Positions 20,920-41,325 of a stretch of 50,456 bases of DNA are shown piece by piece; position 1 is the first letter of the stretch; each line of letters starts with the position of its first letter. The DNA is from a bacterium (GTDB lineage Bacteria > UBP7 > UBA6624). The position numbers and the translations under genes were made by a program. The DNA is taken from NCBI GenBank assembly GCA_002716355.1, contig PBAU01000008.1, positions 1 through 50,456 of the forward strand, in the 5' to 3' direction. The notes under the pieces are model-generated. The model searched no databases. It saw nothing but the letters and a program-made list of their open reading frames with translations, and had not been told where the DNA came from.

Positions 20920-20950
20920 ATATGGATTGCCTATAGCAGGCAATCCATAT
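20920..20950. terminator. Perfect 13-bp hairpin between convergent genes
   Basis: ATATGGATTGCCT at 20920-20932 and its exact reverse complement at 20938-20950 are separated by a 5-base loop (ATAGC). It begins 7 bases after the lipoprotein stop, and its right edge touches the stop codon of the convergent Rieske gene, so it could end transcripts from both sides. There is no long T tract on either strand, so efficiency as an intrinsic terminator is uncertain. Confidence 0.75.
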
Positions 20951-22029
20951 TAATCCTTGTTGATAAAATCACTAATCAAACAATGGAAATGATGTACACC
21001 CTTTTCCATCTTTGGAGAAAATCTTCCATGTTCATAAAACCTTGAAAGAACACCTTTTTGAACACTTTCAACAATCTCTTCATCTTCAAGTTCAACTTTC
21101 TCCAAACTTGCACCAGCCCCCAAGTCCAATTTTTCTTCTTTCCAAACATATGATTTAAATTCAACTTTTGTCTTATTGACAGAGATAGGCTTAACAATAT
21201 TGATAGATAATCCCCAAGGGTAAAAATTCAACATGGTATTTGGGAACAACCAAAAATAATAAGCTGCTATATTTTTTCCATAATCAATAGAATCTTTCGG
21301 AAGATCAAAACAATCACTCTCATCTTTACCGACTCCAACCTGAAGGCTTGAATACGGAAATAACTCAATATGATAATCCTGATGTTTCAAAACTGCAGAA
21401 AGTCCCTTATGGACAAAAGGACAATGGAAACATTCAAGATAATTATCACAATACAAAGCCCAATTTGCATCCACTGTGTATTCTTTAGATAAATCTTCCC
21501 TATAAGAAAAATCCTCTATTGGCATCCACCCCACTCTTGCTTCAATATCATTCACCAAACGATCAAAAGAAAAAGAAGGCTCTAAAGAGGCAAAAATAAA
21601 CTGTTTCCATTTTTTTGTAGAAACTTTTGAAAGATTATCTCTCTCTGAAGGAAAATCCTGCATGTCTTTCGTTTCAGGCATAGACAAAAACTTGCCGCAT
21701 GAATCAAATCTCCTCCCATGGTATTTGCAAAATATGGATTTACCAATATTGCAAGGCTCTTCTAAAAGTAAATTTCCACGATGTGTACAGACATTTGAAA
21801 AACAATCTATATCCTTATTTTTTACAAGGAAAAGAGGCTCTTTTATAAAATCATCTAAAAATCTAAAAGGAAAAACATCTTTTTCCGATTTGATGTTTGA
21901 TTCATGGGTAACCAATTGCCAACTTTTCTCAAAAATATCTTTTTTTACTTTGAAAAAAAAATCTTCAGAGGAGTAGAAAGAACCTGGCAAGGTAAAAGCT
22001 TTTGTTATATCTTTATCAATCCTTTTCAT
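20950..22029 (-). CDS. Rieske non-heme iron oxygenase, alpha subunit type
   Basis: Residues 81-104 hold the Rieske [2Fe-2S] ligands C81, H83, C101 and H104 (CTH, 17 residues, CKYH). The catalytic half has DNYLECFHCPFVHKGL with H202 and H207 placed as mononuclear-iron ligands in the D/E-x-x-H-x4-H pattern of ring-hydroxylating oxygenases and choline-monooxygenase-like proteins. The 359-residue length fits a single-component alpha subunit. No beta subunit or dedicated reductase is adjacent; the FNR at 35478 is distant. The only ATG near the N terminus lies 12 bases after the tRNA-Ala gene with no Shine-Dalgarno, so translation probably follows tRNA processing. The substrate cannot be inferred. 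Confidence 0.9.
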   Translation of the reverse strand: MKRIDKDITKAFTLPGSFYSSEDFFFKVKKDIFEKSWQLVTHESNIKSEKDVFPFRFLDDFIKEPLFLVKNKDIDCFSNVCTHRGNLLLEEPCNIGKSIFCKYHGRRFDSCGKFLSMPETKDMQDFPSERDNLSKVSTKKWKQFIFASLEPSFSFDRLVNDIEARVGWMPIEDFSYREDLSKEYTVDANWALYCDNYLECFHCPFVHKGLSAVLKHQDYHIELFPYSSLQVGVGKDESDCFDLPKDSIDYGKNIAAYYFWLFPNTMLNFYPWGLSINIVKPISVNKTKVEFKSYVWKEEKLDLGAGASLEKVELEDEEIVESVQKGVLSRFYEHGRFSPKMEKGVHHFHCLISDFINKD

Positions 22030-22041
22030 AAAGGCGAAGAC

Positions 22042-22117
22042 TGGTGGAGACTGCGGGATTCGAACCCGCCACCTCCTGCTTGCAAAGCAGGCGCTCTACC
22101 GAATGAGCTAAGTCCCC
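22042..22117 (-). tRNA. tRNA-Ala (anticodon TGC), CCA encoded
   Basis: The minus strand folds into a complete cloverleaf: acceptor GGGGACT pairing with AGTCTCC, D arm GCTC...GAGC, anticodon stem CCTGC/GCAGG with loop TTTGCAA (anticodon TGC), T arm GCGGG-TTCGAAT-CCCGC, discriminator A and an encoded CCA. Its first 10 bases are shared with the end of the upstream amidotransferase gene on the same strand, and the Rieske start codon follows 12 bases after CCA. It therefore appears embedded in a protein-coding transcript. Confidence 0.98.
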
Positions 22118-22761
22118 GTTTGTTGACCGATTACGGATTCTAACCAAGTTTTGAACCATAGTCTCCCCATTCCAGCATCTGTCCTTTCTGGATGCCACTG
22201 AACAGCATTCCATAATCCGCTTTCACTAAGAAATGCTTCAATAAGGCCATCATCTGAATAAGCTGTGGCAAAAAGGCTTTCACCAAGAGTCCTTAAGCCT
22301 TGATGATGATGGCTTTTAACATAAAAATTACCATTTTCAGACTTAATCAAATGAATAGTATCAGTTGATTTTTCTACAGAATCATCTCTATGTATCTTCA
22401 AATCAAAATCCCCATCTTTTATATCTGCCCACAACTTACCACCACGAAAAACATTCATAACCTGAAAACCCCTACACACACCAAGTATTGGCTTGTTTTG
22501 TGAAAGAGCCTTATCGATAATGTCAAATTCAAGATCATCTCTGTCCTTTTTGACTCCATCAATCTTCTTTTCGGGATTTTTACACATGTATGCTCCCATC
22601 TCTACTGCCACATCTCCGCCGCCGCTTAAAACTATTAAAGGGTATTTTGAAACATCATTTGCATCCGTTATCCTCACAGCTCTCAAACCAAACTCCTCAA
22701 GCCATAAGGCATATTTGTCAAGATACTTATCGTCAGATAACGTTATTGCAACTTCAATCAT
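22108..22761 (-). CDS. Class-I glutamine-amidotransferase-like peptidase C26
   Basis: The 217-residue protein has the triad of the gamma-glutamyl hydrolase/PuuD group: the nucleophile elbow in ILGVCRGFQVMNV and the His-Glu pair in AVQWHPERT, with the LIVLSGGGDVAVEMG segment forming the oxyanion side. PuuD-type enzymes hydrolyse gamma-glutamyl compounds in polyamine breakdown, but no putrescine genes are nearby, so the substrate is open. The ATG at 22761 overlaps fmdB in an ATGA junction. Its TAG stop lies inside the 5' acceptor/D region of tRNA-Ala, overlapping by 10 bases, so 5' tRNA processing would cut the mRNA just before the stop codon. An amidotransferase domain without a synthetase partner fits C26 better than a biosynthetic subunit. 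Confidence 0.82.
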   Translation of the reverse strand: MIEVAITLSDDKYLDKYALWLEEFGLRAVRITDANDVSKYPLIVLSGGGDVAVEMGAYMCKNPEKKIDGVKKDRDDLEFDIIDKALSQNKPILGVCRGFQVMNVFRGGKLWADIKDGDFDLKIHRDDSVEKSTDTIHLIKSENGNFYVKSHHHQGLRTLGESLFATAYSDDGLIEAFLSESGLWNAVQWHPERTDAGMGRLWFKTWLESVIGQQTGT

Positions 22762-36641: not shown

Positions 36642-37265
36642 ATGAAAAAAACATTCACAATATTATCCTTGCTACTTGTTATGTTGGGATTATCAAAACC
36701 ACTTAATGCTAGCGATTTTGTTTTGGCAACTGCTCTTGGTGACGAAACCGCTAACGTAATGTGGGTTAATTTTGACATCTCAGAAAAAACGATTTTGCAT
36801 TTTTCAAACATTAATGATGAATATGACTCAAATGAATACAAGAATACAATTTTTGATTTTACCTATATGTATTCTGACTCATTAGGCCTAAGGTTCGGAA
36901 GTTGGTCTCCTGAACTTAACGGAAGCTCAGAGGATGCTATTACATTAGGAACAGTATGGAACTCTGGAAGTCTTTCTTTAGGCTTAGATTACCACAATGG
37001 AGACAATATTGATGGAACATCATTCTCAGCAGGATATTCAATTCAAACATCAGAGAAAAGCTCTATGTTCTTTTGGCATGGCCAAGGTTGGGAGGATGCA
37101 TCTGGGTCTGGAAGCCTTATAGTCCCTGATGTAACAATGATTGGATGGGATTACGCTTATTCAGAAAGCACATCAATAGCGTTAACATGGAGAAGCATTG
37201 ATTTCAATAGTGCGTCAGTTGAATCTACTAGCGGTCCATGGATTGGATTTAATTTTAGCTTCTAA
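36642..37265 (+). CDS. Small secreted, probably outer-membrane beta-barrel protein
   Basis: The gene has a strong AGGAGG ribosome site and encodes 207 residues with a signal peptide (MKKTFTILSLLLVMLGLSKPLNA). The mature part is made of short alternating strands with aromatic girdles (SLGLRFGSWSPELNG, SLSLGLDYHNGD, GTSFSAGYSIQ, SMFFWHGQGWED, SIALTWRSIDF) and ends with WIGFNFSF, the terminal aromatic typical of barrels recognised by the Bam complex. About 8-10 strands would fit. I do not recognise a family. It closes the plus-strand envelope block and overlaps the convergent ligA by 11 bases. Confidence 0.7.
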   Translation: MKKTFTILSLLLVMLGLSKPLNASDFVLATALGDETANVMWVNFDISEKTILHFSNINDEYDSNEYKNTIFDFTYMYSDSLGLRFGSWSPELNGSSEDAITLGTVWNSGSLSLGLDYHNGDNIDGTSFSAGYSIQTSEKSSMFFWHGQGWEDASGSGSLIVPDVTMIGWDYAYSESTSIALTWRSIDFNSASVESTSGPWIGFNFSF

Positions 37266-39300
37266 TATCAAAAAGAATATAAAAATCTTCTTCTGAGATA
37301 GTTTTAACGCCCAGTTTCAAAGCTTTACTTGCTTTGCCTCCAGGCTTTAAACCCATAATTAAATAATCTGTCTTTTTGGTAATATTTGGTGAAAGATTGC
37401 CTCCTTCAGATTCAATAAATTTTTTAATTTCATTTCTAGACTTGCTCAATTTTCCTGTAACAACAACATTTAACCCTGAAAGTTTACCTGAAACCTTTGA
37501 TTCAGACAGTTTGATTCCCATATTTTTCATTTTTAACAACTCTGCTAAGAACAATTCATCCGAAAAATATTTTTCAATATTATTTGCAGTTTGAATGCCG
37601 ATGCCTTTGATCTTTTCCAATTGAGAAGATTTAACATTAAATAAATTTTCAATTGAATTTGAAAAATTAGAAAGAACCAATTTGGATACTTCTGAACCAA
37701 CTAGAGGAATGCCTAGGGCAGCTAAAAGCTTGGTGCATCCTGTATTTTTGGCATCAATCACACCTTTTAATATATTATCCACTGACAAATCTCCCCAATT
37801 TTCAAGGGATTTCCATTCTTTTTCATACTTTTCAAGACAAAAAAAATCAGAAAAACTTTTAACCCAACCCTTATTTATTAAAAGTTTAATTGTTTTTTCT
37901 GAAACTCCTTCGATATCCAAACCTGACTTGCCAACAAAATACTTAAACCTTTCAAAATTTATCAAATCTGAATTGGGGTCTTCGCAATGTAAAAATACAC
38001 CATTATCATCAATTCTTGTGAATGATCCATTCCAAATTTTTGGATATTTAAACTTAGCTTTTCCTGAACCAGAAACTTTCCCTGTTACCTGAGGTATAAC
38101 ATCACCGGCTCTTTGAATTTCAACAGTATCACCAGGAGCAAGATTCAGTGAATTGAATAAAGAATAATTATGAAGGGAAGCATTTGAAATCTGAACACCT
38201 CCTAAATTAACCGGCTTTAATTTTGCGACTGGGGTCAAAATTCCAGTTCTTCCAAGTTGCCATTCAATATTTAATATTTGAGTCAAAGATTTATTGGCTG
38301 GAAATTTCAAAGCCAAAGCCCACCTTGGATGATGGGAAGTACTTCCTAAAATATCTCTTAATTCTTTTTCATTAATCTTAACGACAACACCATCACAATC
38401 TACATCAATTGAATCTCTTGAATCTGAAATTTTTTTAAAATAGTTTTCTATATCCTTTTTAAATCCAAAAACTCTATTTCCACCAGTATAAAAACCAAGC
38501 CGATCAAGCACGTTTATGCATTCTTCATGATTTTCTAAAATAAATTCATCACATATTGGCATATCGTAAAAAAATGCAAACAAAGGAATCTTGGCTGTTT
38601 CTAAAGGGTCTTTAGTCCTTAATGCTCCTGCAACAGTGTTTCTAGGGTTTGATCTTGGCTTTTCGCCAAGCTTTACCCTTTTCTCATTCATCTTGGTAAA
38701 AGCTGAATTTTTTATTACTATTTCACCTCTGACCAAAACCTTACCTTTGGTGTTTATTCTTAAAGGAATATTTTTAATAGTTTTAATATTTAAAGTAATA
38801 TCTTCACCAAAAGAACCATCACCTCTAGATAAAGCTCTTTTTAAAAGTCCATTTTGATACTCTAAAGAAAAACCCACACCATCCAGCTTTAACTCACCAG
38901 CTAAAGAAAAACTATTTGAAATCGTTTTTCCAACCCTTTCTAAGAACTTATCAAAACCCTGAAGCTCTTTACTATTTTCAAGAGATATCATTGGTATCTC
39001 ATGTTGGAAACTTTCCCTGTCTCCCGTGATTGAATTACCTATCCGAAATATTGGAGCATCACCAGGAACATCACCTATTCCTTCTTTGTCTATTTTTTCT
39101 AAACGATCAAAAAGCTTATCGTAAATATCATCTCCAACCAAAGGTTGCGTTCCAACATAGTAAAAATAATTTAAAAAATCTAAAACATCACAAAGAAAAG
39201 ATATTTCTTCATTTACACGATCTTCAAAGATGTTATTTTGCCATTTTTCAATTTCAGATAAATAGAAAACTATATCTCTTTTCGAATAAAAATCTTTCAT
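37255..39300 (-). CDS. ligA: NAD(+)-dependent DNA ligase
   Basis: LigA seals nicks in replication and repair. The order is complete: Ia domain with QPLVGDDIYDKLFDRLEK, adenylation lysine K138 in ELKLDG, SRGDGSFGEDIT, RGEIVI, NPRNTVAGALR, DGVVVKIN and ALKFPA; OB fold with GRTGILTPVAKLKPV and QRAGDVIPQV; helix-hairpin-helix region and a C-terminal BRCT domain (LSGLNVVVTGKLSKSRNEIK). Length 681 is normal. Between OB and HhH the four-cysteine zinc finger is degenerate: CPxCG is YPKIWNG and only C439 remains. The ATG lies 7 bases after tRNA-Leu with no Shine-Dalgarno. Confidence 0.96.
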   Translation of the reverse strand: MKDFYSKRDIVFYLSEIEKWQNNIFEDRVNEEISFLCDVLDFLNYFYYVGTQPLVGDDIYDKLFDRLEKIDKEGIGDVPGDAPIFRIGNSITGDRESFQHEIPMISLENSKELQGFDKFLERVGKTISNSFSLAGELKLDGVGFSLEYQNGLLKRALSRGDGSFGEDITLNIKTIKNIPLRINTKGKVLVRGEIVIKNSAFTKMNEKRVKLGEKPRSNPRNTVAGALRTKDPLETAKIPLFAFFYDMPICDEFILENHEECINVLDRLGFYTGGNRVFGFKKDIENYFKKISDSRDSIDVDCDGVVVKINEKELRDILGSTSHHPRWALALKFPANKSLTQILNIEWQLGRTGILTPVAKLKPVNLGGVQISNASLHNYSLFNSLNLAPGDTVEIQRAGDVIPQVTGKVSGSGKAKFKYPKIWNGSFTRIDDNGVFLHCEDPNSDLINFERFKYFVGKSGLDIEGVSEKTIKLLINKGWVKSFSDFFCLEKYEKEWKSLENWGDLSVDNILKGVIDAKNTGCTKLLAALGIPLVGSEVSKLVLSNFSNSIENLFNVKSSQLEKIKGIGIQTANNIEKYFSDELFLAELLKMKNMGIKLSESKVSGKLSGLNVVVTGKLSKSRNEIKKFIESEGGNLSPNITKKTDYLIMGLKPGGKASKALKLGVKTISEEDFYILFDIRS

Positions 39301-39307
39301 AAAGACA

Positions 39308-39393
39308 TGCCCAGGGAGGGACTCGAACCCTCACGCCCAATAATGGGCACATGGCCCTCAACCATGCGCGTCTACCAATTCCGCCACCTGGGC
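39308..39393 (-). tRNA. tRNA-Leu (anticodon GAG), CCA not encoded
   Basis: The minus strand gives acceptor GCCCAGG/CCTGGGC, D arm with GGTAGAC, anticodon stem CATGG/CCATG around TTGAGGG (anticodon GAG), a long variable arm with stem GCCCA/TGGGC typical of type II Leu tRNAs, T arm GAGGG-TTCGAGT-CCCTC and discriminator A. The genome continues TGT rather than CCA. It sits 5 bases after secG and 7 bases before ligA on the same strand. secG followed by tRNA-Leu(GAG) is also the Escherichia coli order. Confidence 0.98.
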
Positions 39394-39398
39394 AAAAA

Positions 39399-39632
39399 TT
39401 ACGATAAAGGCTGCAAGAAAGCCATTAACAAACTGCTACAAACAAAAAGAATTGCAACTCTTTTAGTCCAAATCTTCAACGATTCCTCGGAGCCTAGACC
39501 TCTTTGCGAGGAAGAAGAAGATGAACCTTGTCCAAACAAACCCATAACGCCTTGTTCTTTTTGTGTTTGTATCAAGATCAAAACAATCAAGCAAACGCTA
39601 ATCAAAATATGTATTGCTAAAAGAATATCCAT
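39399..39632 (-). CDS. secG: Protein-export membrane protein SecG
   Basis: SecG is the small non-essential partner of SecYE. The 77-residue protein has two membrane helices (LLAIHILISVCLIVLILIQ and VAILFVCSSLLMAFLQ) joined by the family loop QTQKEQGVMGLFGQGSSSS, which matches the Q-x-GKGA-MG-AFGGG pattern. It lies 4 bases after mrdA and is followed by tRNA-Leu(GAG). Confidence 0.92.
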   Translation of the reverse strand: MDILLAIHILISVCLIVLILIQTQKEQGVMGLFGQGSSSSSSQRGLGSEESLKIWTKRVAILFVCSSLLMAFLQPLS

Positions 39633-39636
39633 ATCA

Positions 39637-41325
39637 CTAATCCTCTAATTCTAACCTCCAATAATCTCTTATGTTTTTAATTAGTTGCCTAGCTTTAGGA
39701 ACAACTGACTTTGAAGACATTCCAGCATGTTCAGCAAGGATTAAAACAAGAATAGGTTTCGTTTTTTTCTCACTAACTTTAATTTCCCCATAACCAACAA
39801 ACCATCCATGGGGAGGGAGTTTGCTATTGCCGGTTTGTGCAGTTCCAGTTTTTGCAGACATGGTAACACCTTCAACTTTCGACCAGTCATCATCTATTAA
39901 AGTCCTTATAGCAGTTCCTTCTTTTACAGCGAAATCAAGACCTTTTCTAATGGTTTCCAAAGTTTTACCACTAAATGAAAAATCTAAATAATTTTTATTT
40001 TGTGTTTCATCTCCAATTTTATTAATCAAAATTGGAGAAATCCTAGAACCATTAGCCAATGCTTGATAAGCAGAATAAACCTGAATGGGAGTGACAAGCA
40101 ATGAACCTTGCCCTATCATCATATTTACAGTATCGCCTCCATACCAAGGCTCTCCCAGATTTCTTTTTTTCCATTCATTATCTGGAACTAGCCCTTTAGA
40201 TTCAGGTATTGGAAGACCCACTTTGGATCCAAAACCAAATTGATAAGCTGCTTCTTGTAAAATTTTTGGATCCCTGTTCCATCCAGGCACCTCCATACCC
40301 AAATAATAAAAAGTTTCATTGCATGAATGTGCTAAACTGTCAACCATATCCAACACACCAAGACCTTCTTTCTTCCAACCTTTAAATACAGTGTTCCCTA
40401 CCCTTACGGCTCCATTGCAGTTGTATCTTCTTGAAGGATCGACACCCATGTATTCGAGTGCTGCAGCAGCAGAAACAACTTTAAATGTTGATGCAGGAGG
40501 ATAAAGACCTTCAGTTGCTCTGTTGAAAAGTTCAGACTTTTCTCCAACTCCTGGGATATCCTCCCATCTAGAAGACATGTAGCCATCTGGAGAATAGCTT
40601 GGCCTACTAACCATTGAATAAAGTTCTCCTGTAACAGGATTCCCTACAATCACAACTCCATTAGAATTACCTTCTTCATTCTCAAGTATGTCCCAAGAAA
40701 GCTTCTGTATAGGTAAAGAAAGTGACAAATGTATATCCTCACCTTTTTGGGCTTTTTCTCGATTTAAGATTTCATCTTCATAATAGCTACTAGGAAGATC
40801 TCTAAAAAAAACACTACCATTGTTTCCTCGTAAAGTAGTTTCGTACACCATCTCTATGCCAGTTGCACCTATTCTTTCATTTATCCCATATCCATGCTCT
40901 TTTAAATCAGCATAATCTCGAGAATCGATACGTCTTGTATAACCCAAAATCAAACTAAAAAGTCTCCCATAAGGATAATGTCGAGCTAACCTTTCTCTAA
41001 CATCAATAATCCCTTCAGCATTTTTAAGTTTTTTAAAAGTTTCAAAATCAACATCCATATGCCAGCCATCCGGATCCTTATAGAAATTATGAAGAACAGC
41101 TCCTTCTTTCAATTTAAGATCGATCCTTAATCTATTGTCAGCAAGAACTTTTCCGTCTCTGTCAAGTATCAACCCTCTTTCAGGAAGAATGGTATTTGTT
41201 TTATAAATATGATTTTGATAATCTTCTTTAAGTTTTGAATTATTTTGCAATAAAAAAGATTGAAGAAGCAGCGAGAAAAAACCAACTCCTACTAGAATTT
41301 TCAAAAATGAAAAAGACAATCTCAT
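39637..41325 (-). CDS. mrdA: Peptidoglycan D,D-transpeptidase (penicillin-binding protein 2)
   Basis: PBP2 cross-links glycan strands in the elongasome. The 562-residue protein has an N-terminal membrane anchor (LKILVGVGFFSLLLQSFLL), a pedestal domain with TILPERGLILDRDGKVLADN, ATGIEMVYETTLRG and the transpeptidase with S279-x-x-K282 (PASTFK), SCN (HSCNETFYYLG) and K492-T-G (SAKTGTAQTG). It overlaps mreD in ATGA. The usual partner rodA does not follow; secG does. Part of the mreB/mreC-like/mreD/mrdA shape cluster. Confidence 0.95.
   Translation of the reverse strand: MRLSFSFLKILVGVGFFSLLLQSFLLQNNSKLKEDYQNHIYKTNTILPERGLILDRDGKVLADNRLRIDLKLKEGAVLHNFYKDPDGWHMDVDFETFKKLKNAEGIIDVRERLARHYPYGRLFSLILGYTRRIDSRDYADLKEHGYGINERIGATGIEMVYETTLRGNNGSVFFRDLPSSYYEDEILNREKAQKGEDIHLSLSLPIQKLSWDILENEEGNSNGVVIVGNPVTGELYSMVSRPSYSPDGYMSSRWEDIPGVGEKSELFNRATEGLYPPASTFKVVSAAAALEYMGVDPSRRYNCNGAVRVGNTVFKGWKKEGLGVLDMVDSLAHSCNETFYYLGMEVPGWNRDPKILQEAAYQFGFGSKVGLPIPESKGLVPDNEWKKRNLGEPWYGGDTVNMMIGQGSLLVTPIQVYSAYQALANGSRISPILINKIGDETQNKNYLDFSFSGKTLETIRKGLDFAVKEGTAIRTLIDDDWSKVEGVTMSAKTGTAQTGNSKLPPHGWFVGYGEIKVSEKKTKPILVLILAEHAGMSSKSVVPKARQLIKNIRDYWRLELED

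Follow-up and report, generated by a model that had tools for sequence, protein, structure and literature searches.

Transfer RNA genes as candidate punctuation in the compact gene clusters of a small bacterial genome, with near-leaderless mRNAs predicted downstream

In this bacterium, a member of a poorly sampled lineage, tRNA genes stand head-to-tail with protein genes, probably embedded in compact operons, and many are followed within 15 nt by the start codon of the next gene. This tight tRNA-to-CDS design is real, is conserved within the genus and is unusual elsewhere. That the tRNA genes act in this genus as punctuation in compact operons, leaving near-leaderless mRNAs downstream, we hold to be slightly favoured; the 5' end of the downstream mRNA is probably created when the tRNA is excised. 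The evidence lies in the sequence itself, namely in the spacing of the junctions, their recurrence and conservation, the absence of Shine-Dalgarno (SD) motifs, the start codons and the lack of room for promoters. The genome (1.26 Mb in 16 contigs, 86.6% complete) includes as contig C8 the window, by which is meant the whole 50,456-nucleotide stretch analysed. It was compared with two relatives from the same phylum: G001, which belongs to the same genus and is 62% complete, and G002, which shares only the family and is 78% complete. The tRNA matches were extracted with their surroundings (39 from this genome, 29 from G001 and 42 from G002), and the open reading frames of all genomes were called by one uniform pipeline using a simple longest-ORF gene caller.

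On the minus strand of the window, the order of features is a PBP2-like gene (PF00905), secG (39399..39632), five T's, tRNA-Leu(GAG) (39308..39393), the spacer TGTCTTT (39301..39307) and ligA (37255..39300). SecG, encoded upstream of the junction, scores above the curated cut-off of TIGR00810 (58.5 bits versus 30.9; profile positions 2–72 of 73), and its stop codon TAA (39401–39399) is separated from the tRNA gene by 5 nt, the five T's. The tRNA was detected by Rfam (RF00005, 55 bits; 39393–39308) and by ARAGORN (39394–39307); CCA is not encoded and the discriminator is the A at 39308. From there 7 nt, the predicted mRNA leader, lead to the ATG of ligA, which specifies a full-length NAD-dependent DNA ligase of 681 amino acids above the curated TIGR00575 cut-off (558 bits versus 444.45; profile positions 2–652 of 652). 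The SD scan found no AGGAGG-like tetramer at −20 to −4 of ligA.

A three-codon minigene, ATG TCT TTA TGA, can be read from the discriminator onwards, overlapping the ligA ATG as ATGA. Translational coupling to ligA through this minigene was weighed, but having no SD, it was treated as chance. At its 3' end ligA is overlapped by 11 nt (37255–37265) by a convergent ORF of 207 amino acids on the plus strand (36642–37265) that has no Pfam match. The partial assembly of G001 lacks both tRNA-Leu(GAG) and ligA and thus offers no counterpart of this junction. In G002 ligA adjoins tRNA-Leu(GAG) but is divergent, so the head-to-tail junction is not common to the family.

The preliminary description had reported these spacings at ligA, with neither SD nor encoded CCA, and a second case of the same design, and both are borne out by the sequence and the SD scan. 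The second case is tRNA-Ala(TGC) (22042..22117, minus strand; ARAGORN, and Rfam at 72.9 bits), which does encode CCA. A 12-nt spacer, GTCTTCGCCTTT (22030..22041, minus strand), in which the SD scan found no motif, leads from the CCA to the ATG at 22029 of a Rieske-type oxygenase-like gene of 359 amino acids (20950..22029, minus strand; NF058607, 83 bits, below the cut-off of 670). Upstream lies a glutamine-amidotransferase-like ORF (22108..22761, minus strand) with weak matches to gamma-glutamyl hydrolase models. It overlaps the tRNA gene by 10 nt, and tRNA positions U8-A9-G10 serve as its stop codon. An RNase P cut would strip the upstream mRNA of this stop, so that one transcript could not yield both products intact. 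A UAG from tRNA positions 8–10 forms the upstream stop in all six overlaps of exactly 10 nt among seven genomes: the present one (22108–22117), that of tRNA-Pro-TGG on another contig of this genome (C3:104793–104866), and one each in G001, G002, G012 and G038.

Throughout the genome, the gap is 15 nt or less at 12 of the 18 head-to-tail tRNA-to-CDS junctions and reaches 39 nt at the widest. The start is secure at 11 of the 12 short junctions, the exception being Ala-GGC, with a GTG start. Gaps of this length were counted at 8/13 junctions in G001, at 1/23 in G002 and at 9/66 in four unrelated genomes of 1.2–1.5 Mb (0/15, 3/17, 4/16 and 2/18). The preliminary description had suggested that near-leaderless mRNAs arising from 3' processing of tRNAs may be a general mode of expression in this organism, and that the spacing be compared genome-wide with chance. 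That the design itself is general is upheld by its recurrence, its conservation in G001 and the absence of SD motifs, and also by the comparison with five pooled genomes (12/18 versus 10/89; p = 2.6e-6). Against the packing of the genome's own protein genes the excess of short gaps is weak and only suggestive (12/18 versus 15/39 non-overlapping CDS-CDS gaps, p = 0.09, the control gaps being drawn from tRNA flanks and not from whole genomes). General compaction therefore accounts for much of the spacing.

AGGAGG-like tetramers at −20 to −4 are present at 0/12 short junctions versus 40/113 other genes of this genome (p = 0.009), a comparison biased in that the scan window at the short junctions lies partly within tRNA sequence. 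The short junctions thus have no SD upstream of the start, as expected of near-leaderless genes. By the same scan about 65% of the other genes also lack an SD, and SD-free initiation is therefore not special to the tRNA-linked genes. Strong SD motifs precede tRNA-linked genes with longer gaps, with AGGAGG before a tuf-like gene 39 nt past tRNA-Thr and AAGGAG after tRNA-Val; the lineage thus appears to use SD-type initiation, while the short-leader genes go without. A search for 16S rRNA with RF00177, for the anti-SD, gave no match in the three genomes, but as the control was likewise without a match in 5 of 14, this result was set aside.

Packing by itself might explain these observations: streamlining would have shrunk all spacers, each gene would be expressed from any RNA containing it, SD-free initiation would be general and tRNA processing would play no special role. 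This account agrees with the scarcity of SD motifs among the other genes and with the CDS-CDS gaps of the genome, which have a median of 0 and are 15 nt or less in 53/77 cases when overlaps are included. It agrees also with the gaps on the 5' side of the tRNA genes (CDS to tRNA), which are short too (median 19; 9/20 at 15 nt or less, including three overlaps). Against it, the protein genes of G002 and G038 are packed to a similar degree (median gaps of 0.5 and 9), whereas the median tRNA-to-CDS gaps there are 54 and 24.5. In all five comparison genomes the tRNA-to-CDS gaps are looser than the non-overlapping CDS-CDS gaps, and only in this genus is the order reversed, the shares at 15 nt or less being 0.67 versus 0.38 here and 0.62 versus 0.25 in G001. 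Even under packing, the tRNA must still be excised, which itself yields a short leader. We regard packing as the whole explanation as possible and rather doubtful.

With no gap above 39 nt at any of the 18 junctions, a promoter of its own could hardly be fitted in, if at all, between a tRNA and the next gene. Promoters could also lie inside the tRNA or the upstream gene, so that the mRNA 5' ends of ligA and its counterparts would be transcription starts. No direct support for this was found, and no sigma-70-like site was seen on the minus strand from 39300 to 40117 by a consensus scan, which unusual promoters could escape; such promoters would, moreover, need to fit the sequence constraints of a dozen different tRNAs. 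Internal promoters are accordingly considered very improbable.

Misassigned start codons, with translation beginning further downstream from longer and ordinary leaders, are judged equally far-fetched. It may be counted in their favour that the HMM matches of LigA begin at residues 32–37, that its N-terminus is, we presume, about 25 residues longer than that of E. coli LigA, and that the Ala-GGC start is uncertain (GTG, and different in the G001 orthologue). However, no start codon intervenes between the in-frame stop upstream and the ATG at 39300, the following one in frame lies 53 codons downstream within domain Ia, and only the ATG at 39300 retains this domain; the 7-nt spacing is therefore not an annotation choice.

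Misassignment is also opposed by the eight short junctions that have an orthologue in G001. Their gap lengths are the same or differ by 1–2 nt, their leaders are from 8/11 to 7/7 identical, and within the first 40 codons most of the eight pairs differ mainly at third positions, as in coding sequence (first, second and third positions: 3, 1 and 17 after Leu-TAA; 3, 0 and 10 after Lys-TTT; 3, 2 and 9 after Ile-GAT). Besides ligA, the genes following tRNAs include what we take to be trigger factor (tig), tilS, a SpoU-type methyltransferase, a GNAT protein and an XRE regulator. At tRNA-Leu-TAA (C2:32688–32770) and at its G001 orthologue, the discriminator A is followed by TG, which gives an ATG in frame with the regulator gene. 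The start codon of this gene could thus take its first base from the tRNA; an alternative ATG lies 12 nt later.

For the punctuation reading we infer co-transcription, the position of the cut, the enzyme and the mode of initiation as follows. One transcript would span the upstream gene, the tRNA and the gene after it, as with secG, tRNA-Leu and ligA. RNase P would cut at the 5' end of the tRNA, and an endonuclease would cut at or just past the discriminator base, or past the CCA where this is encoded. The downstream mRNA would be released with a leader of about 7–15 nt lacking an SD, and would be translated by SD-independent, near-leaderless initiation. In the uncut transcript, tRNA-Leu(GAG) is predicted to form a very stable fold whose end lies 8 nt ahead of the ligA AUG, and its excision therefore plausibly helps ligA initiation.

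CCA is encoded by 9/39 tRNA genes of this genome and is lacking from 30/39, and proteins of the PolyA_pol/CCA-adding type are present. RNase Z, which the preliminary description had named as the enzyme cutting behind the discriminator, finds no support, since neither TIGR02651 nor the broad PF12706 revealed one in this genome, G001 or G002 (87, 62 and 78% complete). Two metallo-beta-lactamase-fold proteins were considered as RNase Z and rejected, that of C13 reading as PqqB-like and that of C3 as lactonase-like. RNase E/G and RNase J were likewise not found in the three assemblies, and because these are incomplete, all of these absences are provisional. RNase Y-type proteins occur in all three, with 382–439 bits, slightly below the model cut-off. 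The cutting of tRNA 3' ends with no RNase Z apparent has a precedent in P. acnes, which is reported to have no obvious tRNase Z and yet to show cuts at tRNA 3' ends (PMC3848588).

A stronger form of the proposal is that tRNA punctuation of the mitochondrial style forms the mRNA 5' ends of a housekeeping set (ligA and, as we read them, tig, tilS and others), that near-leaderless translation of these genes depends on excision, and that the 3' cut is made without RNase Z by another endonuclease, perhaps RNase Y. This we consider unlikely. The punctuation reading itself, were it to hold, would give bacteria an instance of the mitochondrial scheme and tie housekeeping genes such as that of DNA ligase to tRNA maturation. 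It would also show that in compact bacterial genomes tRNA processing can stand in for promoters and ribosome-binding sites. The literature searched, which covered few subscription papers, held no report of genome-wide near-leaderless mRNAs from bacterial tRNA processing, and this is weak evidence of novelty.

The adjacency of secG and tRNA-Leu(GAG) is old, since in E. coli K-12 tRNA-Leu(GAG) (leuU) also lies 14 nt after secG. Unlike here, there is no near-leaderless junction in E. coli K-12, the next co-directional gene being about 460 nt past leuU, and rimP 206 nt past metY.

The known system most like the arrangement is the tRNA punctuation of animal mitochondria (Ojala, Montoya and Attardi 1981, described in PMC10941002). 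Here, too, tRNA genes stand directly between protein genes with minimal spacers, and their excision would set mRNA ends and leave very short leaders or none. The present case differs in that the genome is bacterial, that only part of the genes lie beside tRNAs and that SD-type genes coexist with them. The leaders would be of 7–15 nt as against 0–3 nt in mitochondria, where cutting is by RNase P plus an RNase Z of the ELAC type; the latter was not found here. The arrangement may thus be said to work like mitochondrial tRNA punctuation; membership is not claimed, because processing is a prediction from sequence and RNase Z was not seen.

The second comparison is with the well-known leaderless and short-leader mRNAs of bacteria, whose 5' ends are transcription starts in P. 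acnes (PMC3848588) and in S. coelicolor and E. coli (PMC4681348). The predicted mRNAs share with these leaders too short for an SD, and SD-free initiation; unlike them, they would owe their 5' ends to the maturation of a tRNA.
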